In this document: positions 1,376 through 13,280 of the stretch, piece by piece
Position numbering within the stretch: the stretch's first letter is position 1
How the letters are laid out: the number at the start of each line of letters is the position of its first letter
Source: Synechococcus sp. MIT S9220
GTDB taxonomy: Bacteria > Cyanobacteriota > Cyanobacteriia > PCC-6307 > Cyanobiaceae
Reading direction: 5' to 3'
Assembly: GCF_014304815.1 (NCBI RefSeq)
Contig: NZ_CP047958.1
Location: 1,240,001 to 1,304,000 of the forward strand
Length of the DNA: 64,000 nt
Program-made: the position numbers and the translations under genes
The notes under the pieces: model-generated
Seen by the model: the letters and a program-made list of their open reading frames with translations, nothing else
Told to the model about the DNA's origin: nothing
Database searches by the model: none

Positions 1376-1591
1376 TTGAAAACGATCGCCGTGATCTGTG
1401 AAATATCTCTGGCTCTAGTGGCAGGATCTTTCTACGCGCGAGCCATCCAAGATCACATTGACGCGCAAGAAAAACCAAGTGGAGCGATCAACAGCGGTCT
1501 GATGGCCTCCAAAGAGACTGCGAGACGTCAGCTTTCTAGATACCTCATTCACAAGCAATACAAGCGCTACATAAAACCATCAATCAGCTGA
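1376..1591 (+). CDS. Possible small membrane-anchored protein, unknown function
   Basis: A 71-codon frame starts at a TTG preceded by GGAAAA. It would give a short hydrophobic N-terminal segment (about residues 4-21, EISLALVAGS) followed by a charged, lysine/arginine-rich tail ending in YKRYIKPSIS. The pattern fits a small single-pass membrane protein with a basic cytoplasmic or stromal-side tail. The weak start and local AT richness leave real doubt. I do not recognise a family, and neighbours give no functional hint. Confidence 0.4.
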   Translation: MKTIAVICEISLALVAGSFYARAIQDHIDAQEKPSGAINSGLMASKETARRQLSRYLIHKQYKRYIKPSIS

Positions 1592-1828
1592 CAGCAATCT
1601 TGTCAAGCCAACCAAAGACCGTCTAGTTTTATTTTTAGAGCATAGAACTCTTTCTGATCGACAAGAAAGGACCCATCAAGATCGACAAACCTTGACAATC
1701 AGCCTCAGCCGTGGACCTAGGCCAAAGGCTCGGGCTATCGATAGTTTCAAACGCAATTTCGACAAAACCTGAAATGATTGAAAAGCTGAGTTTTCAGACA
1801 TAGACTATCGTTCATATTAAGCGCAAGA

Positions 1829-2533
1829 ATGAAATCATCAGCCAACACTCTCTGTATCGATATTGGCGGCACAGGTGTCAAGCTCATTGTTCTTGACCCC
1901 ACAGGAAGTGAGTTGTGTGATCGACAACGGCAAGAAACTCCTCACCCTGCAACCCCGGAATCAATTCTTGGGGTCATTCAAGAGTTGACCAGCAAAGTGC
2001 CCGAATTTGATCGTGTTGCCGTTGGCTTCCCTGGCGTCGTCAGCAATGGAATGATTGAAACGGCTGCCAACTTAGACACCCATTGGTTAGGCATTAACCT
2101 TGCCGCTCAACTGGAACAGCGCCTAAAAAAACCGACTCGAGTTGCCAATGACGCAGATGTACAGGGATATGGATGTGTTTCCGGAGAGGGTGTTGAAATG
2201 GTGCTGACCCTTGGCACAGGAATGGGATCAGCCTTGTTTCTTGATGGACGCCTGGTACCCAACCTGGAACTTGCCCATCATTTGTTTAAAAAGAAAAAGA
2301 CGTATGAAGACTATATCGGCAGACCGGCACTTGAAGAGATTGGCAAAGAGAAGTGGATTCAGCGTGTTAAAAAAGTCATATCAACAACAAAGCACATCTG
2401 GAACTGGGACTTTTTGCACTTGGGTGGTGGCAACAGCAAGCTTCTGAAAGAAGCGGAGTTATCAAACGACGTGATGTTGCATTCCAACAAAGCTGGTGTG
2501 TTAGGTGGTTATTTTTTATGGGAAGGCAACTGA
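1829..2533 (+). CDS. ROK-family kinase, probably polyphosphate glucokinase-like
   Basis: 234 residues of the ROK/actin-fold kinase family. The N-terminal phosphate loop is at residues 11-18 (DIGGTGVK), the catalytic aspartate region is VANDADVQG near residue 112, and a second nucleotide loop TLGTGMGSAL follows. The LELAHHLF segment and the short length resemble polyphosphate/ATP glucokinases, which phosphorylate glucose using polyphosphate. The cysteine-rich zinc motif of ROK repressors is absent and there is no helix-turn-helix, so this is an enzyme rather than a regulator. The sugar and phosphate donor are inferred from family resemblance. It appears monocistronic. Confidence 0.82.
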   Translation: MKSSANTLCIDIGGTGVKLIVLDPTGSELCDRQRQETPHPATPESILGVIQELTSKVPEFDRVAVGFPGVVSNGMIETAANLDTHWLGINLAAQLEQRLKKPTRVANDADVQGYGCVSGEGVEMVLTLGTGMGSALFLDGRLVPNLELAHHLFKKKKTYEDYIGRPALEEIGKEKWIQRVKKVISTTKHIWNWDFLHLGGGNSKLLKEAELSNDVMLHSNKAGVLGGYFLWEGN

Positions 2534-2738
2534 TTGATTCTTCGCGAATCATCGATGTGTGATGAACTGACTGGTCACCAATCATTTGCTCAGGCGATCG
2601 TTCTGTCGGCCTGATTGTTGTCCCGAACCGAGCCGGTGAATCACGAGGAGCTGCTGTGGGTTCTGGTTGCGCTGGTAACTGTTGAAACCACAGCGATCCT
2701 TTACACAGCGCAAGCTTCCCTGTACACGAAGGTCACTG

Positions 2739-2825
2739 GTGGAAATTCTCACAGCCCTTGCGGTTCTGCCGTTTTTCGCCGCTCTGGTCGTTGGAGCCAG
2801 GGAGGCCGAACAGGATCAACGCTGA
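2739..2825 (+). CDS. Candidate 28-residue single-pass membrane peptide
   Basis: A GTG start preceded by GAAGG at a spacing of about six bases opens a 28-codon frame. It encodes a hydrophobic helix (ILTALAVLPFFAALVVGA) followed by a short charged tail REAEQDQR. The size and layout resemble the tiny membrane subunits common in thylakoid complexes, but I cannot match it to any known photosystem, cytochrome b6f or NDH subunit. A longer frame (2615-2866) overlaps it but turns arginine-rich and looks like the shadow frame. Comparison with related genomes would decide; low confidence. Confidence 0.35.
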   Translation: MEILTALAVLPFFAALVVGAREAEQDQR

Positions 2826-2878
2826 AGCGTGGCATTCGAAGCAGATCCATGGCTATGCCTGAGTAAACGGGCTCGGTT

Positions 2879-3244
2879 ATGCGCTGGCTGCTGGTTTTTT
2901 CCGGACTCATCATGTCCGGGATCTGGGTTGATCTCAAAGCAGAGCAACGTCCACCTGAATTGCAGGCAGGGCAATCGATTTTGGTTGTCGACCAAACCCT
3001 GACTTCCACAGGCTGGAATCCTGCTCCTGAAGGACAAGTACAGACCTTTGAGCAGAAGCTGGCGGGCAATCAACTGTCGTCACTGGCGTCCTGCTCAGGA
3101 ACAGGTGCTGGATACTGCCGTTACGACTACCAACGGAGCAACAAGCGGCTCGTGGTGGTCACGGTGCCAGCGCCTCAACCCAATCAAGCTGGACGCGTGG
3201 CCCGTTGGTGGATGGAGTCTGTGACGCTCAACCCAGCACATTGA
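2879..3244 (+). CDS. Exported or lumenal protein of unknown function
   Basis: 121 residues beginning with a typical signal sequence: MRWLL, a hydrophobic stretch to about residue 16, then a likely cleavage near LKAEQ. The mature part has two cysteines close together (ASCSGTGAGYCRYDY) that could form a disulfide outside the cytoplasm, and a conserved-looking VVVTVPAP strand. No family is recognised. It ends 17 bases inside the convergent membrane-protein gene at 3228-3473, so the two genes share a 3' end. Confidence 0.7.
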   Translation: MRWLLVFSGLIMSGIWVDLKAEQRPPELQAGQSILVVDQTLTSTGWNPAPEGQVQTFEQKLAGNQLSSLASCSGTGAGYCRYDYQRSNKRLVVVTVPAPQPNQAGRVARWWMESVTLNPAH

Positions 3245-3473
3245 TCAATCTCAGGGTTCCCCACAGGTCAAAAACGCAGAAAATCAACCCAATCACAATC
3301 AGGTCCCAAGCACGGTGACGCAACGCCCAGGGAGCAAGAAAGACTTCGGCAACGCCGTGAAGTGCTGTTCCCAGTGCGATGTGTTCAAGCACCAGCAGTC
3401 CATGAGCCAACAAGAAAAGGCCGCTCGCGACGAAGCGCATTAGCACCGACCAGGAGACCGACACTCTTTTCAT
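3228..3473 (-). CDS. Small multi-pass membrane protein of unknown function
   Basis: 81 residues made almost wholly of hydrophobic helices, about residues 8-30, 36-52 and 56-78, with basic residues between them (LRHRAWD). The length and three-helix layout are coherent and the frame has no other explanation, which supports a real gene. The fold resembles small DUF-type thylakoid or plasma membrane proteins, but no family is assigned. It is convergent with, and overlaps by 17 bases, the exported protein gene to its left. Confidence 0.7.
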   Translation of the reverse strand: MKRVSVSWSVLMRFVASGLFLLAHGLLVLEHIALGTALHGVAEVFLAPWALRHRAWDLIVIGLIFCVFDLWGTLRLINVLG

Positions 3474-3698
3474 CGAACGGCAAGTCAGCCTATCGGGTTT
3501 GCCGGCTTGAACCTCGACGGGCTGTTGAGGCTTGTTAAGGCCAATGTCAGATCAATCGGCATGAGGTTCCGCAAAGATCAGCCCTAAAACGCATCCATTG
3601 GCAGTTGACGTCACAGCTCGACTGGCGATTCGTATCAGAAGTCACGCTTGCGACCAGCCAAAGGTGAAAACAACTCGTCAACGAGCACTGGTGTTGAC

Positions 3699-3722
3699 TC
3701 TCAATAGTGCGTACTATTGAGA
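3699..3722 (+). promoter_or_regulatory. Perfect 10-bp inverted repeat upstream of the Fur-family gene
   Basis: TCTCAATAGT and ACTATTGAGA form a perfect dyad around a 4-base centre (GCGT), ending 19 bases before the ATG at 3742. A TTGACT at 3694-3699 adjoins it, so bound protein would cover the likely promoter. The position is that expected of an autoregulatory operator for the Fur-family protein; the sequence is not the classical GATAATGATAATC Fur box. Confidence 0.6.
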
Positions 3723-3741
3723 AACACTGCATTCCGTTTGC

Positions 3742-4194
3742 ATGTCGCCTGCAACCTCTTCTGCTGAAGCGACCGGAACTCTGAAGAAGGGGCTACACCA
3801 GGAAGGGCGTCGGATGACGCCGCAGAGGCGATTGGTGCTGGACCTGTTTGAACAGATCGGCAGTGGTAGTCATCTCAGTGCAGAAGAGGTCCACCGTCAG
3901 CTTGTGGACAATCAGTCGAAGGTCTCGCTGGCAACCATCTACCGCACCCTGCGGTTGTTGGTGGAGATGGATTTTCTTCAGGAGCTGGAACTTCGAGATG
4001 GAGGAAGTCGTTTTGAGCTGGCGGATGAAGAACACATTCACCACCATCACCTTGTCTGCGTGCGCTGCGGCCGTACGGAAGAATTTGAAAATGAGCCTGT
4101 CCTTCAGGCAGGGCGTGATGCTTGCAAGCAATTCGATTTTGAACTGATCGATTCCAGCCTGAATGTGCGTGGCATCTGCCCTGCATGCCGTTGA
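3742..4194 (+). CDS. Fur-family metal- or peroxide-responsive repressor
   Basis: 150 residues with the full Fur architecture. A winged helix occupies residues 20-85 (MTPQRRLVLDLF, recognition helix VSLATIYRTLRLL), followed by a histidine-rich hinge HIHHHHLVCVRC and a dimerisation domain. Two CxxC pairs (Cys106/Cys109 and Cys146/Cys149) make the structural zinc site. Members sense iron, zinc or peroxide (Fur, Zur, PerR). The four-histidine run and two complete CxxC sites fit any of them, and the sequence alone does not settle which. The 3' neighbour is a histidine-rich repeat protein on the opposite strand, hinting at metal handling. Confidence 0.92.
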   Translation: MSPATSSAEATGTLKKGLHQEGRRMTPQRRLVLDLFEQIGSGSHLSAEEVHRQLVDNQSKVSLATIYRTLRLLVEMDFLQELELRDGGSRFELADEEHIHHHHLVCVRCGRTEEFENEPVLQAGRDACKQFDFELIDSSLNVRGICPACR

Positions 4195-4204
4195 TCAGGG
4201 CTTC

Positions 4205-4699
4205 CTAGTGATGGCCCGTTGAATGCTCGGAACAAGGCATCCAGTGACTGCCCATCTGGTGGACTCCCTCACAGCCAATCAGCTTGGCCTGTGCTTCAGC
4301 TTCAGCCTTGGTTGGGAAAGCCAGCAAGCGTGGATCGTCCTCTGACTCAGCGAGAGAATTGCTGTTGTGGTTGGGGCTGCTGTGATTGTGGCCGTTGTGA
4401 TCATGGCTGCCGCGCCCACCCATCTGGACCAAACCCATGCTCATCGGTCCAATCGTCCAGACCCCCATGGTGTTGGCACCGATTGCCAGCAGTCCCATTC
4501 CCACAATGGAGAGGTTGATCACGCCCATAGCGACCACACCGATGGAGACCACCCCCATCGGAACGATGCCGATACAAATCACGCCCATCGGCACGATTCC
4601 GATCGAAACAGTGCCGAGTGGGGCAATTCCAACAGCCAGGCGTTTGGGCTTACTGCCGCAATGAGCTGGCGCCGAATCAGGTGAGGAAGATTTAGTCAT
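4205..4699 (-). CDS. Glycine-pentad repeat protein with His-rich linker and DUF3721-like tail
   Basis: 164 residues in three parts. Residues 24-94 have glycine (serine once, at 64) at every fifth position, in the pattern G-V-V-P/S-M/I; the units alternate between ending PM and SI, giving a ten-residue super-repeat (GIVPMGVICI). Residues 95-115 are Gly/His/Asn-rich (HDHNGHNH). The C-terminus (about 128-158) has FPTKAEAEAQAKLIGC and HQMGSHWMPC, matching the DUF3721 pattern as I know it from marine Synechococcus. Strict period five over 71 residues suggests a beta-solenoid or a packed membrane-associated sheet. The histidines and cysteines suggest metal binding. Function is unknown. It converges on the Fur-family gene and diverges from the SepF-like gene. 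Confidence 0.85.
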   Translation of the reverse strand: MTKSSSPDSAPAHCGSKPKRLAVGIAPLGTVSIGIVPMGVICIGIVPMGVVSIGVVAMGVINLSIVGMGLLAIGANTMGVWTIGPMSMGLVQMGGRGSHDHNGHNHSSPNHNSNSLAESEDDPRLLAFPTKAEAEAQAKLIGCEGVHQMGSHWMPCSEHSTGHH

Positions 4700-4754
4700 C
4701 TCTGCATGGTGACGGTTGCTGCGACTTTCCTCCAGCCTCGCCAGGCTGAGAGTA

Positions 4755-5015
4755 ATGAATCAATTCACTCCAGAGCAATTACGGGAACTGCTTGTGATCC
4801 GTCCGCAAGACGTGACGGAGGGGATGGCAGCTGTTCTGGCTGTTCGCAGTCAAAGAACAGTGGTGCTTGATCTCACGTCCATGGAGATCGCCCAGGCACA
4901 ACGCACCGCTGATTTCGTGTCCGGTGGCGTGAGGGCCGTCGACGGTGAGGAACATCGGCTCGGGGAGCATGTGTTCCTGTTCACGCCAGCTGGCGTTCAG
5001 GTCACTCTTAACTAA
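4755..5015 (+). CDS. Short SepF-like protein (cell-division SepF domain)
   Basis: 86 residues consisting almost only of the SepF domain: IRPQDVTEGMAAVLAVRSQ, VVLDLTSMEIAQAQRTADFV and a C-terminal FLFTPAGVQV strand. SepF tethers FtsZ to the membrane in cyanobacteria and Gram-positives. Here the N-terminal amphipathic anchor and linker of full-length SepF (about 180-200 residues) are missing, so this is probably a second, divergent copy that may bind SepF or FtsZ rather than the main division factor. I chose the ATG at 4755 over an upstream frame start at 4716 because homology begins after it. Its 3' end overlaps arsS by 8 bases, convergently. Confidence 0.78.
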   Translation: MNQFTPEQLRELLVIRPQDVTEGMAAVLAVRSQRTVVLDLTSMEIAQAQRTADFVSGGVRAVDGEEHRLGEHVFLFTPAGVQVTLN

Positions 5016-6039
5016 GAGAACCACCACAGCTGGATCCATTGCCAGCCGTACACCCAAAACAATGGTCTGCGACGGCAATCGGTTGATCCATCAGTCCATC
5101 CGCAGCGCTGAGTAGATCAGCGAGCACTCGAGGGCCAGCGTTGGATGCAAGATTCAATTGCTGATTGAAATCGCAGTCGTAGAGCGCTCCGGTCCAGCTC
5201 ACGCTGATCAGGCTTCGGCACATGACCGCAGCAATATTTTCCGGTCGATGGGCCTCACGCAAGATCTGCTGGTACGGCTCGAGCTGACCCTGATGCTGCA
5301 AATCTCGCGCGAATCGCTGAATCGGCATGTTGGTGATCGTGAGTAGGTGAGAGAACGTAATCCCGTGGCTAGACGACAAGGCCTGCCTGTATTGGGCCTC
5401 AAGGGATTCCTGAGCCGGAGGAAGGGAAGGGCCTGAAGGGTTGAACACCAGATCCAGTTGCAAGGGTGATCCGGGTTGGGCGTATCCCAACCGATTCAAC
5501 TGCTTCAAACCTGCAATGCTGCGCTCATAGACCCCCTGGCCTCTCTGTAGATCGACCCTCTCCTGTTCGTAACAGGGCAGAGATGCAACCACCCTCACAC
5601 CCATCACAGCCAGGAATTCAGCAAGATCCTCATGTCCGGGTTCGCTGAGGATCGTGAGATTGCAGCGATCGATCACTTCGACGCCAAGAGCCCTGGCCGC
5701 CGTAACAAGCTCACGAAACTGAGGATGCAGTTCCGGTGCACCACCGGTGAGATCAAGACAACGAAGACCCAGGCGAGCGAGCACCTCAGGAATCAGATCA
5801 ATGAGCTCCCCAGCCATCATTTCCTTCCTCCAGGGGCCGGCATTCACATGACAGTGACTGCAGCTCTGATTGCATCGATAGCCGAGGTTGACCTGCAGAG
5901 TGGTCAATCTGCCTCGGCGAACGGGGGGGAACCTCAGTGTTTCGGGAAAGGTTGATGTCAACGTCGGGGTGCGATCTGAAGCCGTGACCTGTTGGAATTC
6001 TGGCGAATCACCCGCAAAGTGAGGCAGGCGACTGTTCAA
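5008..6039 (-). CDS. arsS: Arsenosugar biosynthesis radical SAM protein ArsS
   Basis: 343 residues. The radical SAM cluster motif is Cys56-x3-Cys60-x2-Cys63 (CNQSCSHCH), followed by the DLTGGAPELHPQFRELV segment typical of ArsS. The C-terminal half carries further cysteines (VMCRSLIS, YDCDFNQQ and the terminal CFGCTAG-SSCGG), matching the DUF3641 region that binds an auxiliary cluster. ArsS adds the 5'-deoxyadenosyl group to dimethylarsenite on the way to arsenosugars. No arsM or other arsenic gene is in the immediate neighbourhood, so the methylated substrate must come from a gene elsewhere. The length is normal for the family. Confidence 0.93.
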   Translation of the reverse strand: MNSRLPHFAGDSPEFQQVTASDRTPTLTSTFPETLRFPPVRRGRLTTLQVNLGYRCNQSCSHCHVNAGPWRKEMMAGELIDLIPEVLARLGLRCLDLTGGAPELHPQFRELVTAARALGVEVIDRCNLTILSEPGHEDLAEFLAVMGVRVVASLPCYEQERVDLQRGQGVYERSIAGLKQLNRLGYAQPGSPLQLDLVFNPSGPSLPPAQESLEAQYRQALSSSHGITFSHLLTITNMPIQRFARDLQHQGQLEPYQQILREAHRPENIAAVMCRSLISVSWTGALYDCDFNQQLNLASNAGPRVLADLLSAADGLMDQPIAVADHCFGCTAGNGSSCGGSLS

Positions 6040-6079
6040 CGATCAGGGCATACACCGAGATCAATCTGGCAAGGATGTT

Positions 6080-7348
6080 TCAGGGTGTGCGTTCGGTCCG
6101 AGTTTCCGACAAAGCGGTGAACCAGTTCACATAGGCCTTGGGACCGCCAGGAATGCAGACATCGAAATGCAGAGGATCCTCAGGGTCACTGATCCCAGCG
6201 AGAGAGCCATCGGTCAACGACGGTCGGTCAACCTCTCCGCCACTGCTGTCGACAAGCACCACCCGGTTTGGACGTCCAAAGCTGCATCCGAGTTCCTGAA
6301 GGAGAGTGAGAAAGCCTCGATCACTGCCTCCTCTCAACCAGCCTTCTCCAGAAGGATTGATCGTTGAAGTAACAGTGTCACCAACGCCGACGAGGTGAGG
6401 CATCTGTTCACGAGGTATCCGTTGCTTGCAGAGAGCCAGCAGTGCTTCATGGTCATTGGGTGCTGTTCTGACGTTGAACGCTTCACCGAGAGGTGCCTTG
6501 CCTGTGCGTGCTGCGATGTGGCGATTGATCAACACCAGCAATCCCGCTTCCTTGATGGCTCCTCGCAACATGAACTGGATATCGGTACTGCCAACATCTC
6601 CCTTAACGGCAGGCTTGAGCCGTTCACAGCCAAGGGGATCACGCCCGAGATTCGGCGCAACATGCAGGAAGAAGGAGTCGTGAAGCCCTTCGGAAACGGC
6701 CATCGCCATCAGTTGCTGCATGAGCGACTCCAGCATTGACTGCAATTGGCGCTGATGCTCAACATCGTCAGGGATTCGACTGAACAGGTGGTTGAGATTG
6801 ATGGTTGGTGAGAGCTGAGTATCTAGAACCGCCAGATCAACCTCAACGGATAGCTCCTGATCGCTCAATTCCGGCATCAAGGCAGGGAGCATGGAACACA
6901 TCAGTGCCTTCATCCGCCCGGGAACCGATGCCAGGAAGCTGATTTCAGCCTCACTGACTCCTGGATGCGTGACGTTGCCGAATTCATCCTGCAGCTGCAC
7001 ACCACCGGCAGCGAGCCCGGGGAGATAGAGACCTTGACTTCGGGCCTTTTCACTGTCACCGAGTGCTTTCTCAACAAGGCGATTGACGCCGCGATGACCT
7101 TCGTGTTCGCCATTGGTCAGAACCACAAAACTGCCACGTAATCGAGCAGCGGCATACACATAATCCGCAGAAAGGCTCCGGGTGAGTGGATCCTTCACCA
7201 GAGGTATGCAGACCCCGTCAAGGTCCTGCACGATCAAAAGGTCTGGACTGGCAACGAGTTCCTGATGCAGTGAAGCGAGATCCATCCCAACCATGCTGTC
7301 GCGAGCTTGGTTCTCACCCTCCCATGCAGCGATTGAATCGCCAATCAT
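6080..7348 (-). CDS. stpA: Glucosylglycerol 3-phosphatase
   Basis: 422 residues matching StpA, which removes phosphate from glucosylglycerol 3-phosphate in the last step of synthesis of the compatible solute glucosylglycerol. A haloacid-dehalogenase-type DxDG motif is at residues 42-45 (QDLDGVCIPLVKDP), followed by VVLTNGEHEG and later VGVGDTVTSTIN, which looks like the conserved acidic motif. Possible internal starts (MVGMDLASLHQ) would shorten it by about 18-21 residues. Its presence marks a moderately halotolerant, marine-type cyanobacterium. It is transcribed alone; the synthase is not in the window. Confidence 0.93.
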   Translation of the reverse strand: MIGDSIAAWEGENQARDSMVGMDLASLHQELVASPDLLIVQDLDGVCIPLVKDPLTRSLSADYVYAAARLRGSFVVLTNGEHEGHRGVNRLVEKALGDSEKARSQGLYLPGLAAGGVQLQDEFGNVTHPGVSEAEISFLASVPGRMKALMCSMLPALMPELSDQELSVEVDLAVLDTQLSPTINLNHLFSRIPDDVEHQRQLQSMLESLMQQLMAMAVSEGLHDSFFLHVAPNLGRDPLGCERLKPAVKGDVGSTDIQFMLRGAIKEAGLLVLINRHIAARTGKAPLGEAFNVRTAPNDHEALLALCKQRIPREQMPHLVGVGDTVTSTINPSGEGWLRGGSDRGFLTLLQELGCSFGRPNRVVLVDSSGGEVDRPSLTDGSLAGISDPEDPLHFDVCIPGGPKAYVNWFTALSETRTERTP

Positions 7349-7373
7349 CGAATAGCGGAACGATGATCAGACT

Positions 7374-7854
7374 TCAGGCAAAACCCATGACCAACCTGAA
7401 GGCAGGCTGGAGATGGGTGCGATCAATCACAGCCTGAATCTCCGGATAGAGGCTGAGATCAAGCTCTGGGAAAAACAATGGCAGGTCACTGAGATGGACC
7501 TCAACAGCGAACTCAGCAGCACCCCAGCAATCGCCAACCAAAGGACGCTCAGGATTTAGTTAATGATTGAACACCTCCATGAGTCGTGCAAATTCACGTT
7601 CACGACTGGAGGAAACGAATCATGCACATGAGGCCGCAGCTATGAGTCTCGGCAAGATGCAAACGGATTGAACCACTTTCGAACAACTTGAGTGGAGATC
7701 CATCCTCAAGCAGGACATCACTGTCGATCAAAGCAGGAAGCTTTCCAAATGGGTTGATGCCAAGGAAATCAGCATGGCGGTCGTGAATTGACTGCAGGTC
7801 CAGTTCAACCAGTTCATGGTTGATCGCTTTGATTTCCATGAACCAGCGGGGCAT
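7374..7854 (-). pseudogene. Glutathione S-transferase remnant
   Basis: Two pieces of one protein lie in order on the minus strand. 7607-7854 encodes a thioredoxin-fold N-terminal half with the recognisable NPFGKLPALIDSDVLLEDG and ESGSIRLHLAET segments. 7374-7562 encodes a C-terminal end (ERPLVGDCWGAAEFAVEV to FRLVMGFA and stop). A stop codon lies immediately before the second piece, the middle helices are missing, and the first about 12 residues of the N-terminal strand look degraded. This fits a glutathione S-transferase gene disabled by deletion and frame loss. Confidence 0.72.
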
Positions 7855-8021
7855 GCGTGCTCATGTTCTTGGACCGCCGAAAAGCTTTAAAGCCAGCGGA
7901 TCACATCACTTGTGGATGATGCTGGCAACGGGCTAGCCCAGATTCAAGCTGCCTGAAAGATCGCCATTAGTTCTGAGGATGTCTTGACAAAAACTGATCC
8001 TGTGATTCCGTGCTCTTAGGC

Positions 8022-8050
8022 TTCATACAATTGAACAATTCAGCTATACT
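8022..8050 (+). promoter_or_regulatory. Possible promoter of the SemiSWEET gene
   Basis: TATACT at 8045-8050 is a good -10 element, and a weak -35 (TTCATA, 8022-8027) lies 17 bases upstream. Transcription would start around 8057, giving a leader of about 30 bases before the ATG at 8086. Prediction by eye only. Confidence 0.35.
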
Positions 8051-8085
8051 AAAAGCTTCAACATTGACCGACGAACATTTTTCGT

Positions 8086-8382
8086 ATGACATTAGATTTG
8101 AGTTCGTCTGAAATATTCGGCTTCGCAGCAGCAACACTTTCAACAATCGCATTTCTGCCACAAGTGATCAAAACATGGAAAACGCGATCTGCCAAAGACG
8201 TTTCTTATGCTTTGCTGCTCACGTTCAGCACAGGCTGTTTTTGCTGGGTGGTTTATGGGGTCCAGACAGACGCCAAACCGGTAATGATCGCAAATGCATT
8301 CACATTGACACTTAACCTGGCAATCTTGGCAATGAAGTTCAGCTTCGAAAACGGAAGCAAAACAGTGTCACAAGAGGATTAA
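8086..8382 (+). CDS. SemiSWEET-family sugar transporter
   Basis: 98 residues forming a three-helix bundle, the half-unit of SWEET transporters, which dimerises to make a pore for sugar diffusion. The PQ-loop signature is at residues 25-31 (LPQVIKTWKTRSAKDVS). The second helix contains FCWVVYGVQTD and the third NAFTLTLNLAILAMKF, both placed as in the family. The C-terminus is a short polar tail. The cargo cannot be read from sequence; sucrose and glucose are known substrates of the family. It ends 4 bases into the convergent hypothetical gene on its right. Confidence 0.9.
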   Translation: MTLDLSSSEIFGFAAATLSTIAFLPQVIKTWKTRSAKDVSYALLLTFSTGCFCWVVYGVQTDAKPVMIANAFTLTLNLAILAMKFSFENGSKTVSQED

Positions 8383-8636
8383 TAGTGACTTTTTAAAACT
8401 TGAAGAATATCCTTGAGCTCATCAATCTGGATAGAACTACGATTTTGATCATCAAGCAAAATCATTTCAAATCCATCCCAGTTTTTAATCAAATCAACTT
8501 CGACAAAATTTTCATTTAATGTCATCCTGATATTGACTCCCCAATCCGCCGAATCCACCAAAAGACCTTCCAACGATCCAATCCGCCCGCTTCCGAGCAG
8601 AGCACGAATTTCGTTCTCCATTTCCTGGCTATTCAT
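8379..8636 (-). CDS. Small acidic protein of unknown function
   Basis: 85 residues with an acidic, well-structured composition: a start helix MNSQEMENEIRALLGSG, a central strand-rich part (GVNIRMTLNENFVEVDLIKN) and a C-terminal helix IDELKDILQVLKSHY. The frame shows protein-like composition and tail-to-tail packing with the SemiSWEET gene, overlapping by 4 bases. No family is recognised and no motif suggests a function. Confidence 0.58.
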   Translation of the reverse strand: MNSQEMENEIRALLGSGRIGSLEGLLVDSADWGVNIRMTLNENFVEVDLIKNWDGFEMILLDDQNRSSIQIDELKDILQVLKSHY

Positions 8637-9053
8637 CGCTCAGAATCTAAACAAAGGCATTAGGTCTTGAAATAAGGATAAGCCATCAACATCATGATCT
8701 CTCGAACAAAAGCAACATTCTCTGGAGCTCTCTGACGCACAGCATTCGATTATCAACGCAAAGTCAGTCTTCAATGATGCACATCTCAACCAATCGATTC
8801 TTCCATCTGTCGTCAGACAAACCATTCACAAACTTGGGGAATGAGATTGTCGGCTGGTGTTTTCAGCCATCGTGCCTGCAGCATGAGCGAAGCTCCCCCT
8901 GACCTGAGAGCAGATAATGGATCAATGCTGAGGTTGAACCGGCTGATCCAACGGTTTGCTCCGAACTCATGACCCTTCCAAAGAAAGCGGTGTAACTCGG
9001 CTGCCATCCCAAGCTTTCCATTCTTTGTTCACCTCATCCTCCCCTTCATTGCA
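8637..9053. other. Intergenic stretch, possible decayed or unrecognised coding
   Basis: Between the small acidic gene and the dehydrogenase-like gene I see no secure gene. A 64-codon minus-strand frame (8813-9007, beginning MAAELHRFLWKG) has protein-like composition but no recognisable family and no partner. A second short frame (8640-8825) is cysteine-rich and looks spurious. No RNA gene or terminator was found. Confidence 0.5.
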
Positions 9054-10595
9054 ATGAGTCTCAGTACTGCAGCACTGTTGAACTCAAACGGATTCTTTCC
9101 TCCAAGCCTCGACAGGGATCAGCTGCGACAGCGGGTCTGGGAGTTGGAAACCGGAAAGGTCGGGTTTTACAGCGTAGGGCTCTATCCCGCTTCCCTTGCC
9201 TACAACTGTGCCATGCAGCAGAAGGACGAAGAGAATCTGCTGCTGGCACCCCGACCCGATCGCGAGCTTCTCGGTGCGTTCACGCAGTCGGCCCTCGACG
9301 GCATGGACCCGAAGCATGTGGCGGTCATGGAACGCATGGGCAGCCATCGAGTTGGGGGTGTACGTCAGCCCAACACCCTGGCTGACTTGCTCAAACGCTG
9401 TGAGCTGGTTGTGCTCAGTGCCAACAGCAATCATGTTGAAGAAGACCTGATCGAAGCGATTCAACTGCGGGATCAATTGGGTCGGCAACACGTGGTTCTG
9501 GCCTGCCTGGCCGGATCATTCAGTCATGACAACCTGATCAACGAGTCGTATGTGTTGTGTGAAAAAGTCCCAAGCCTGGGCTTTTTCTCAGGCTTTCACC
9601 GTCATGGCGCCCTGCGCAATCCGCTCGACAGCTTCACGGCCAATTTCTGCCATCCCAACGCACTGACAGCGCTCCTGGGAGCGCGAATGCTGGATCGACT
9701 GTCGCCGAACATTCAGGTTTCAGCAGGGGTTCACAACATTGAGGGGCAGTACATCAAGGCAGCGAAAAACATGTCGTCGGTGTTCGCCGGGTTTGGTTAT
9801 GCCTATCACCAGGACAACCCTGGAGTGCTTCCAACTCTGCTGACGCTTCTGCTTGACCAGTGTCTGGACCAAGCGGCAACGGTTTCCATGGCTCGGCGCA
9901 ATCGCCAGAGGCTTTACAACCGTCAGCCTTTTGCACTGACGGAGCTCGGTTATGGCGTTCAAAGGATCGAAGCGGCTTTAGTGCGCGGGGGAGATATGGA
10001 GAAGGTGCGCGATCACACCTTTGCGCAACTCACCGCCATGGTGGCTGACGTACGCGGCAGCATGATGTTGCCGGTTTCCGGCACACCGACCCGAAATTTC
10101 CATGCAGGTCAGGTGTTGGCAGAGCACATGCTCGACGAAAAGCGCTGTCCGCACTCGATGGAAGAGCTCGAGAACTGGTGCGAACAGGCAGGCCTGCGTA
10201 AAGGAGGCCTGGAAGGTCTCAAGTCGTTGCGCTACTGGCCACAGATCGTGCGCAAATACGCCATTCCCGTGCACGACGCATCGATGGTGAATCTGCTCTA
10301 CATGGCTATTTATGGCAATTCCACCACCAAAGATGTGGCGTTTTCGGTGATGACCGAAAGCCGTGAGCTCTCCAATTACTGCCAGGAGTCGGTGCGACCC
10401 ACCCACAGCCGGCGGTACGCAGAGGCACTCCAGAATCTTGACCAGCCTGAAGCGATGGATTTGTTGGTGAATGCTGTGATTGCTGATAACGCCCGCCGCT
10501 TGATTCGGGATGACAACGGCATCGAGGAACAGGACACAGCCGATGAACCACCGGCCTATCTAAAAGCCATGAACGTGATCGAAAACGCACTCTGA
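9054..10595 (+). CDS. Conserved cyanobacterial dehydrogenase-like protein (6PGDH/G3PDH fold suspected)
   Basis: 513 residues. The N-terminal third alternates strands and helices in Rossmann style (ELVVLSANSNHVEEDLIEAI, then QHVVLACLAGSFS). The middle contains SAGVHNIEGQYIKAAKNM and GFGYAYHQDNPGVLPTL, reminiscent of the helical C-terminal domain of glycerol-3-phosphate or 6-phosphogluconate dehydrogenases. A textbook GxGxxG nucleotide loop is not obvious. I regard NAD(P) binding as likely, and the substrate as unknown. The ATG at 9054 is the first codon of a long frame and its context is ordinary. It stands alone, convergent with the SbcC-like gene 24 bases downstream. Confidence 0.7.
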   Translation: MSLSTAALLNSNGFFPPSLDRDQLRQRVWELETGKVGFYSVGLYPASLAYNCAMQQKDEENLLLAPRPDRELLGAFTQSALDGMDPKHVAVMERMGSHRVGGVRQPNTLADLLKRCELVVLSANSNHVEEDLIEAIQLRDQLGRQHVVLACLAGSFSHDNLINESYVLCEKVPSLGFFSGFHRHGALRNPLDSFTANFCHPNALTALLGARMLDRLSPNIQVSAGVHNIEGQYIKAAKNMSSVFAGFGYAYHQDNPGVLPTLLTLLLDQCLDQAATVSMARRNRQRLYNRQPFALTELGYGVQRIEAALVRGGDMEKVRDHTFAQLTAMVADVRGSMMLPVSGTPTRNFHAGQVLAEHMLDEKRCPHSMEELENWCEQAGLRKGGLEGLKSLRYWPQIVRKYAIPVHDASMVNLLYMAIYGNSTTKDVAFSVMTESRELSNYCQESVRPTHSRRYAEALQNLDQPEAMDLLVNAVIADNARRLIRDDNGIEEQDTADEPPAYLKAMNVIENAL

Positions 10596-10619
10596 ATTCG
10601 ATCATCCAAATCCAACCAA

Positions 10620-13280
10620 TCAGTGATCGTCGAGGTCGATCACCGCATCAGCAATCTCTCGGTAGGGATCCGGGTCACAACTGAAAAGCACCACCTGAAG
10701 ACCCAGATCAACGGCCTGCCGGAGCATGCTCCCAACCGCTTCAAGTCGCGAGGGATCGCTGTTGGTAAAGGCGTCATCAAACAACAAAGGGAGACAGCCG
10801 TCATGACCATCTCGCAGAGCCTCGGCGATTGCTAAGCGAACAGCTGCGTTGAGCTGTTCCTTGAGTCCTCCGCTGAGTTGTGAAAACTCGAGGCTCTGAC
10901 CTGAGCGCTGAAGTCGCAGATCCTTCAGGCCGTCGCTGGCATCAAAACGCAGCTCAGAGCTGTCGCCGGGATGCTGCAGAAACGGAGCAATGAAACGATT
11001 AATGCTGGTTCTCAATGGTGACGAGTAACGACGTGAAAGGTCCGCACGCGCGTCCTGGAACCGATTGAGAAGCAGAACCCGTGACTCAACCAGCTGGGTT
11101 TCCTGTTCTTCTGCCTGTTGAGCGAGCTCAAGACGATTGGACGTTTCCTCAAGTTCGGCATGGAGTTCACGGCTTCCGAGACGTTCACAGCGCTCGAGCA
11201 ATGAACCCCGTTCACGATTGAGATCGGTGCGTTGACGATTGAGCTTCAGCTCACGATCATCCAGCTCAGCAAGTGATGTCTCCACCTCGGTGCCAGAGGC
11301 CAAACCACAGTCGTCGCTCAGCTCGAGCAGTTGGTCCTGCAACAGCGCACACTGATGCGTGACCTTCTTGAGTTCAAAATCGATAGTTTGCGATGAGCCA
11401 TGCCGCGATTCGATCTCGTGTTGTTGCTGAAGCTGCTGGGCATGCTGAGCCTCATGGCGCTCCAGTCGAATTTGGAGATCCTGAAGCGTCTTGGCAAAAC
11501 CCTTCTGTTCACGTTCCACGCGCTCACAGTCCTCACGCAGTGATCGGACCTGTTGCTGAACCGATTGATAACTCTGGCGGCAGTCGTCCAAAGCCTTCGC
11601 AAGGTCGTCTTCAACAACAATCTCCGGATCAACTGGATGTTGTCGCAGCTCAGCGAGCTGCTGATCGAGTTGTTCGAGGTCTTGATCACCCTTCAGGTTG
11701 CTCTGCTGCTCCATGAGCTGGCGAAGACGTGCATCGAGAACAACAAGCTGCTGTTGAAGCTCCGTGCGCGTCTGCAACAGAGCCTCAGCAGCCTCGAGGC
11801 TGTTGACACCCCAGAGCTTGAGCTTCTGCTCCAACAGAGACCGACACTGTGTCCTCTCGGCCATCAGTGCTGAAAGGCCGGTCCCTTCTCCAGGACTGAC
11901 CAACAGGGTGACGTCTTCACCCACTTCAAGCCGAAAAGCACCAGTCCTTTCAGCAACGTCGCCAATCCCGAGCTGTTCGCCATCGAGGCGCACAGTCATG
12001 TTCGAGGATTGCAATTCGACTCGCGATGCCATGCTTTGAAGACGGATCTCCAACTCACGGAGCTGTGTTTGCTGAGCTTGAAGAGCCGCCAAATCGTTGG
12101 CATCGCGACTTGGCAGTGCCGTCAGCTGTTGCTTGAGCTGGGATTGCTGCTGTTCGAATTTGGCGCGTTGTTCCTTGTGCCGACGCATGTCCAGGATCCT
12201 TTGTTCAATCCGTTCCTGGTCCTGACGACGTCGTAGTGCATGGCCACGCTCTTCAAGCGTCTGACGCTTCAGGTCGAGTTGTTCACACGCACGTCGTTGA
12301 TCAACGAGTGTGCTGGAAGTGGTCTCGGCGGACTGGTTCATGACCTTGAGCTCCTGTCGCAACGCCTTCATCGCCGTTTCAGCAGCCTGGATTTCCTTGA
12401 TCAGACGACTCAGAGCATTGAGTTGTTGTTGCCATTGGCTCTGCTGAAGACGAAGAGGAGCCAGCCGTTGTTGCAGATCCTTGAGAGCGAGAAGCTGTCG
12501 ACGTCGCTTCTGCACTTCCGGTGCACGGCACTCCAGCTGATCAAGAGCCTGCTCATTGGCGTCAAGCTCGATGCAGGCTGCTTCATAACTGAGCAGTCGC
12601 TCCTGTGCTTCGGCTTGTTGCTCTGAAGCTTGTTGAACGTCCCGCCGGCGTTTCCAGAGTTCACTGTTTTGTTTCACGCCCCGACTGGTGAGGCTGGAGG
12701 CCACAAGTTGCTCAAGCTGGTTGTAGACCTGCTGATCCATCGGCGACTGCAGAGATTGCTCAGCCTGGCCTTCCAGAGCAGTGATCAATCCCTTGAGGTC
12801 ATAGTGCTCGCCGCTGAGATCCAGCAGATTGCGACCGGCCAGTCCTTGCATCACCCAGAGGTGAGCCCAACGGGTGGGTAAAACACGGTTCACCTGACGG
12901 CTACCGATGATCTCCTCGACTCCCAAAAGAACAGCCAGCTGATCCTCGGCATCGCCACCGAGCAAAGCCTTCTGACCTGCTCGACTCAAGCGGCTGGTTC
13001 CGCCGGCACCGCTAAAACATTTCAACAACGACCAACGATGCCCAGCAGCATCGAAGTCGATCTCGACCTGGGGATGACCTGCATGTGTGGCCGAGCGCAG
13101 ATCACGAATTGCCGCTCCCGTGGCAGAAGCACGCAGAAACAATGCGCGGTGCATCGCCTCCACAAGCGAGCTTTTACCGGATTCATTGGCACCTCCAATT
13201 AAGGTCAGCCCAGGAGCAAAGGACACCTCAAGAGCTCGATGCCGGCGAATGCTTTCCAGTCGGCAACGAATCAGGCGCAT
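10620..13280 (-). CDS. SbcC/YhaN-like SMC-type ATPase without a zinc hook
   Basis: 886 residues with the Rad50/SbcC layout. Walker A is at residues 29-38 (GGANESGKSS), a very long Gln/Glu/Leu-rich coiled coil spans the middle, the signature QLSGGLKEQL lies near residue 800 and Walker B (LPLLFDDAF) near 834. The CxxC zinc hook that joins Rad50/SbcC arms is absent; cysteines in the coil are single. That and the intermediate length bring it closer to the YhaN group than to E. coli SbcC. It overlaps by 10 bases with the upstream nuclease gene, so the two proteins probably form a DNA-end processing complex. Confidence 0.85.
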   Translation of the reverse strand: MRLIRCRLESIRRHRALEVSFAPGLTLIGGANESGKSSLVEAMHRALFLRASATGAAIRDLRSATHAGHPQVEIDFDAAGHRWSLLKCFSGAGGTSRLSRAGQKALLGGDAEDQLAVLLGVEEIIGSRQVNRVLPTRWAHLWVMQGLAGRNLLDLSGEHYDLKGLITALEGQAEQSLQSPMDQQVYNQLEQLVASSLTSRGVKQNSELWKRRRDVQQASEQQAEAQERLLSYEAACIELDANEQALDQLECRAPEVQKRRRQLLALKDLQQRLAPLRLQQSQWQQQLNALSRLIKEIQAAETAMKALRQELKVMNQSAETTSSTLVDQRRACEQLDLKRQTLEERGHALRRRQDQERIEQRILDMRRHKEQRAKFEQQQSQLKQQLTALPSRDANDLAALQAQQTQLRELEIRLQSMASRVELQSSNMTVRLDGEQLGIGDVAERTGAFRLEVGEDVTLLVSPGEGTGLSALMAERTQCRSLLEQKLKLWGVNSLEAAEALLQTRTELQQQLVVLDARLRQLMEQQSNLKGDQDLEQLDQQLAELRQHPVDPEIVVEDDLAKALDDCRQSYQSVQQQVRSLREDCERVEREQKGFAKTLQDLQIRLERHEAQHAQQLQQQHEIESRHGSSQTIDFELKKVTHQCALLQDQLLELSDDCGLASGTEVETSLAELDDRELKLNRQRTDLNRERGSLLERCERLGSRELHAELEETSNRLELAQQAEEQETQLVESRVLLLNRFQDARADLSRRYSSPLRTSINRFIAPFLQHPGDSSELRFDASDGLKDLRLQRSGQSLEFSQLSGGLKEQLNAAVRLAIAEALRDGHDGCLPLLFDDAFTNSDPSRLEAVGSMLRQAVDLGLQVVLFSCDPDPYREIADAVIDLDDH

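Follow-up and report, generated by a model that had tools for sequence, protein, structure and literature searches.

A glycine-decad repeat protein with a DUF3721 domain as a candidate copper-handling protein of picocyanobacteria

The two Pfam families closest to the protein described here, the GLTT repeat (PF01744) and DUF3721 (PF12518), both lack a known function, and our literature search for DUF3721 or the GLTT repeat found no mention of either, in keeping with the original prediction, which had called the protein unstudied. The GLTT profile derives from nematode proteins built on an xGLTT unit. Little is known of how Prochlorococcus and Synechococcus handle copper, scarce or toxic, for plastocyanin. 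In Synechocystis, the BlaI-like regulator PetR and the BlaR1-like protease PetP are described as the copper switch between plastocyanin and cytochrome c6 (PMC7896320).

We analysed a window of 64,000 nucleotides (the whole stretch of DNA under study) from Synechococcus sp. MIT S9220. As originally claimed, its minus strand carries an open reading frame at 4205..4699 (-), which encodes a 164-aa protein with matches to both Pfam families. From the N-terminus, the protein consists of an HCG motif, a glycine pentad (decad) array, a His-rich linker and a DUF3721 domain.

Architecture of the repeat protein

The array spans residues 24-98 (4406..4630, minus strand) and comprises 15 pentads, or 7.5 decads, in which Pfam recognises GLTT in four stretches. 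Glycine occupies 14 of the 15 register positions (24, 29, 34 and onward to 94), with Ser at position 64. The predicted period of one glycine, or in one case serine, at every fifth residue from 24 to 94 is therefore exact; when residues 20-98 were shuffled 200,000 times, the register was never matched (maximum 11). The array matches PF01744 at 60.6 bits against a cut-off of 21, so that an existing profile, overlooked in the original prediction, already catches the repeat. Searches of NCBIfam and of PDB sequences with the window protein returned no matches and no relatives, respectively.

The pentads are of two alternating types, as had been proposed, although their ends conform only loosely to the PM and SI given there. 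Even pentads end in Leu or Met (28L, 38M, 48M, 58M, 68M, 78M, 88M) and odd pentads in Ile, Leu or Met (33I, 43I, 53I, 63L, 73I, 83I, 93M). Ten residues make up the true unit of the array, which reads G-h-h-[PAS]-M-G-h-h-[ST]-I, with a consensus of Gly at position 1, Met at 5, Gly at 6, Ser/Thr/Cys/Ala at 9 and Ile at 10. In the window protein, this arrangement produces a regular series of Met at residues 38, 48, 58, 68, 78 and 88.

The array is flanked by segments that contain candidate metal ligands. Alignment showed that the N-terminal motif [PA]-H-C-G-[ST]-K-P-K is kept in nearly all picocyanobacterial orthologs, and its His13-Cys14 pair (4658..4663, minus strand) may possibly serve as metal ligands. 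The His-rich linker of the original prediction is present at residues 99-111 (4367..4405, minus strand; His 99, 101, 104, 106 and 111); its length and His number vary among aligned orthologs, and it is missing in some. The C-terminal domain (residues 128-160; 4220..4318, minus strand), previously termed DUF3721-like, proved to be a full DUF3721 member, matching PF12518 at 63.8 bits against a cut-off of 27 (E 1.2e-17). AlphaFold2 models it as a helix and a beta hairpin, with pLDDT >90 over much of the domain. Its pattern C143..H147.M149...W153-M-P-C156..H159, that is C-x3-H-x-M-G-x2-W-M-P-C-x2-H, suggests a metal site.

For the array itself, AlphaFold2 gave two different answers. With 30 picocyanobacterial sequences the array was modelled as beta structure with a spacing of about ten residues (pLDDT mostly 52-63), and from the single sequence as one long helix (mean pLDDT 66). 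Because the two models disagree, we claim no fold for the array, and the solenoid or layered sheet envisaged earlier was not borne out by these low-confidence predictions. Structure comparison with the low-confidence first model retrieved middling, unrelated beta proteins only (best Z 5.1). Were the array a beta structure repeating every five or ten residues, position 5 of successive units would stack; in a helix it would not. Residues 21 to 95 contain no charged residue and have a mean hydropathy of 1.57, so membrane association of the protein is possible; as regards the earlier idea of an envelope protein, no signal peptide is evident in it.

Conservation and gene neighbourhood in picocyanobacteria

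All 31 genus genomes matched the query and 30 of them contain the array protein, the match in the remaining genome (G026, 63% complete) being weak and spurious. The array protein also occurs throughout marine Synechococcus and Prochlorococcus (loci L034-L075), and the gene is retained in both genera even when genomes are streamlined. Within the array, dN ranged from 0.013 to 0.071 against a dS of about 1.0-1.9 (five pairs with computable dS), giving a dN/dS of about 0.01-0.05 where measurable. The array is more conserved than the full-length protein, of which it is the best-kept part, and its ten-residue repeat evolves under strong purifying selection. In the ortholog alignment the Gly, Met and Pro columns of the repeat hardly vary, and the glycine register, whose conservation was central to the original reading, is conserved among orthologs.

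In paralogs at 44-55% identity the array is retained and DUF3721 is degenerate; such divergent copies with an intact array occur at five loci (L076, L077, L078, L079 and L085), e.g. GCNTVFKVGNYWKPC. Many Prochlorococcus loci encode a short DUF3721 protein just upstream, often with a lipoprotein-like leader and a His-rich tail, and some encode a repeat-only protein just downstream of the repeat-DUF3721 gene. At six loci (L051, L062, L069, L072, L075, L088) we observed the full tandem of short DUF3721 protein with His-rich tail, repeat-DUF3721 protein and repeat-only protein of ~78 aa. Two contigs labelled Gammaproteobacteria (L036, L038; MAG isolate CPC316) carry the Synechococcus locus and are probably mis-binned or mislabelled.

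DUF3721 profile matches were found in 36 of 292 cyanobacterial genomes, all in the organism's own family. Its own genome holds three DUF3721 copies. One is a secreted-looking protein (L145, own genome C1 1432000-1450000, at 8643-8963) within a cluster at 1450-12425 that also comprises two ZnuA-type binding proteins, ABC transporter genes and an ArsP-type permease; another (L144) adjoins an RND pump.

The neighbourhood of the repeat gene is itself conserved. A Fur-family regulator gene (PF01475; 3742..4194, plus strand) lies tail to tail with it at a distance of 10 bp, confirming the neighbour named in the original prediction. Regulation by this neighbour is unsupported, since the two genes are convergent, and a Fur-box scan found no good box (best 10/19). 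On the other side, a divergent gene for a small SepF-domain protein (PF04472; 4755..5015, plus strand) shares the intergenic region. The next upstream gene on the same strand encodes ArsS, an arsenosugar biosynthesis radical SAM protein (TIGR04167, 439 bits against a cut-off of 300; 5008..6039, minus strand). Marine Synechococcus keep ArsS as the upstream neighbour of the repeat gene, and in some of them it directly abuts that gene in the same orientation. The Fur / SepF / ArsS order is kept in most marine Synechococcus loci, with the SepF gene missing in some. We recognised no copper gene within the window and no BlaI/PetR-type regulator gene in the organism's own genome.

The wider cyanobacterial family and its copper-gene neighbours

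An array-only profile matched 97 of 386 genomes, about a quarter of the cyanobacterial genomes, and 20 distant loci with matches were examined individually. The distant relatives are short proteins with no domain besides the repeat, mostly ending in a His-rich tail, and score 50-90 bits against PF01744. Many of them have P-H-G or A-H-G in place of the P-M-G of the window protein, typically in three decads ahead of those with Met. Across six units of 25 homologs, 110 Met and 29 His were counted; 106 of the former and all of the latter stand at position 5 of the decad, the only place where His replaces Met. Position 5 is thus reserved for Met or His across a large phylogenetic span. General copper chemistry leads one to expect a Met-to-His exchange confined to a single position at a soft-metal ligand site, and the exchange observed here would fit such a site. 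Two queries of viral contigs found no relatives, and none were found on plasmids, where the low-complexity filter may hide repeats.

Genes of copper and heavy-metal systems adjoin several of these relatives. Directly downstream of the repeat gene, BlaI-type and M48/M56-type protease genes occur in families f12 (L137, L142, L150) and f23 (L135), and f27 (L157), from a second draw of genomes, has a BlaI/protease pair within 2 kb. Judging by domain make-up and gene order rather than by a tree, we infer that these pairs are PetRP orthologs; the L142 regulator scored best against CopY/TcrY, below the cut-off. The gene order in f25 is cytochrome c, repeat, DUF1775 and CopC/CopD. DUF411, multicopper oxidase and HMA P-type ATPase genes adjoin the repeat gene in f14, as do an HMA ATPase and a multicopper oxidase gene in f57 (L164). 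P-type ATPases and a DUF326 protein are encoded nearby in f23 (L151), an ATPase about 5 kb away in f44 (L163) and an RND pump 1.8 kb away in f13. At a further locus (L131), possibly of the genus Synechocystis, the homolog adjoins a recR-like gene, and we recognised no copper gene out to about 8 kb from the repeat gene in the genomes examined from family f6. Within the heavy-metal gene island of L151, a frameshifted array gene (7200-7500; pseudogene or sequencing error) lies between metal ATPases.

About 45 genomes have both a BlaI-type gene and the repeat gene; in 5 of them the two lie within about 2 kb of each other, where about 0.04 would be expected by our own arithmetic from genome sizes, relatedness reducing the five genomes to three families. 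In the second draw, 120 genomes were searched and 12 new loci were compared with 8 random control regions. Copper-type genes occurred at three of the 12 loci (L157, L164, L163) and at none of the controls, numbers too few to decide alone; the copper-gene list was drawn up after the first loci had been seen, and only these 12 loci were new to it. Collectively, membership of the repeat family in the copper economy is moderately supported.

Functional interpretation and comparison with known systems

Probably the window protein is one that handles metal (copper) and has so far gone undescribed; this reading draws its metal binding from ligand pattern and gene context. More precisely, we put about even odds on its belonging to an undescribed cyanobacterial family of proteins that handle metal, with Cu(I) as the likeliest one. 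The original suggestion of a metal-related protein gains indirect support from the Met/His ligand pattern and the copper-gene neighbours of relatives. Those distant relatives make copper a likelier metal than iron or zinc, which the Fur neighbour had suggested.

Under this proposal, the array would fold so as to arrange its Met/His residues in one or two soft-ligand ladders, which would bind or pass Cu(I), while the His-rich segment would capture metal and DUF3721 would add a second metal site in picocyanobacteria. The protein may then buffer, store or deliver copper, for example for plastocyanin, or protect against it. We infer Cu(I) binding by the ladder from the residue pattern and assume its alignment in space.

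Met is also a common hydrophobic residue, and this could count against copper binding by the array: the repeat could instead be a hydrophobic structural or membrane-embedded element, of beta sheet or helices, with Met in packing or turn positions and metal bound only by the His-rich segment and DUF3721. The uncharged, hydrophobic composition of the array and the long helix of the single-sequence model agree with such an element. However, the exchange of Met for His in distant homologs, at position 5 only, would be odd for a lipid-facing or packing residue, and an alpha helix does not fit a five- or ten-residue period; we regard this explanation as rather unlikely. It is very unlikely, in our view, that the protein belongs to the ordinary pentapeptide-repeat (Rfr) proteins, its consensus having diverged, and plays no part in metal handling. 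Its five-residue period and a small residue followed two places on by a hydrophobic one (G-x-V, resembling A-x-L) recall these proteins, and distant homologs match Pentapeptide_2 weakly (17-18 bits, under the cut-off of 26.4), yet the PF00805 profile (A-[DN]-L-x-x) found no match in the window protein at E up to 1, in agreement with the earlier exclusion of the classical repeat. Moreover, outward positions would be hydrophobic, and the Met/His rule and the copper neighbours would be left unexplained.

The picocyanobacterial neighbours Fur, SepF and ArsS include no copper gene, which counts against the copper reading. The protein might instead serve zinc or iron under Zur or Fur regulation, an alternative that we hold to be unlikely. 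It is favoured by the conserved convergent Fur gene, by the ZnuA-type binding proteins clustered with the DUF3721 paralog of the same genome and by the missing BlaI/PetR-type regulator, whereas convergent neighbours need not share regulation, the Fur-box scan was poor, Met/His/Cys ligands favour soft metals and copper genes adjoin the relatives. Because the genome is without a BlaI/PetR-type gene and the window without a copper gene, the picocyanobacterial version could have shifted to a zinc or iron function.

The copper proposal also has a stronger form, possible but on the unlikely side: a new cuproprotein class with a glycine-decad fold, widespread in cyanobacteria, whose regular Met/His ladder would hold or conduct several Cu(I) ions in the plastocyanin/cytochrome c6 copper economy. 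If the copper reading is right, the GLTT repeat and DUF3721, both domains of no known function so far, would gain a testable role, and a one-dimensional soft-ligand ladder in a simple repeat would offer a novel architecture for storing or transferring metal. For mutagenesis, the Met/His rule gives a sharp prediction.

Four described systems come closest to the protein. It matches the GLTT repeat formally and shares its glycine at every fifth residue, but PF01744 is without the ten-residue unit and the Met/His rule. Its C-terminal domain is a full DUF3721 member; DUF3721 elsewhere stands alone in short, often secreted-like or lipoprotein-like proteins, whereas here it forms one protein with the array. 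A five-residue period and a small residue with a hydrophobic one two further also mark the pentapeptide repeat proteins (PF00805, PF01469; Rfr beta helix), but their consensus differs, PF00805 remaining unmatched and PF01469 sub-threshold only. With the Met/His-rich copper proteins (CTR Met motifs, CopC, CusF, CopM) the family has in common exchangeable Met/His soft ligands, His-rich tails and copper-gene neighbours, but Pfam and PDB searches found no sequence relation to the window protein, and we know of no regular ten-residue Met/His spacing inside a glycine repeat in CTR, CopC, CusF or CopM.
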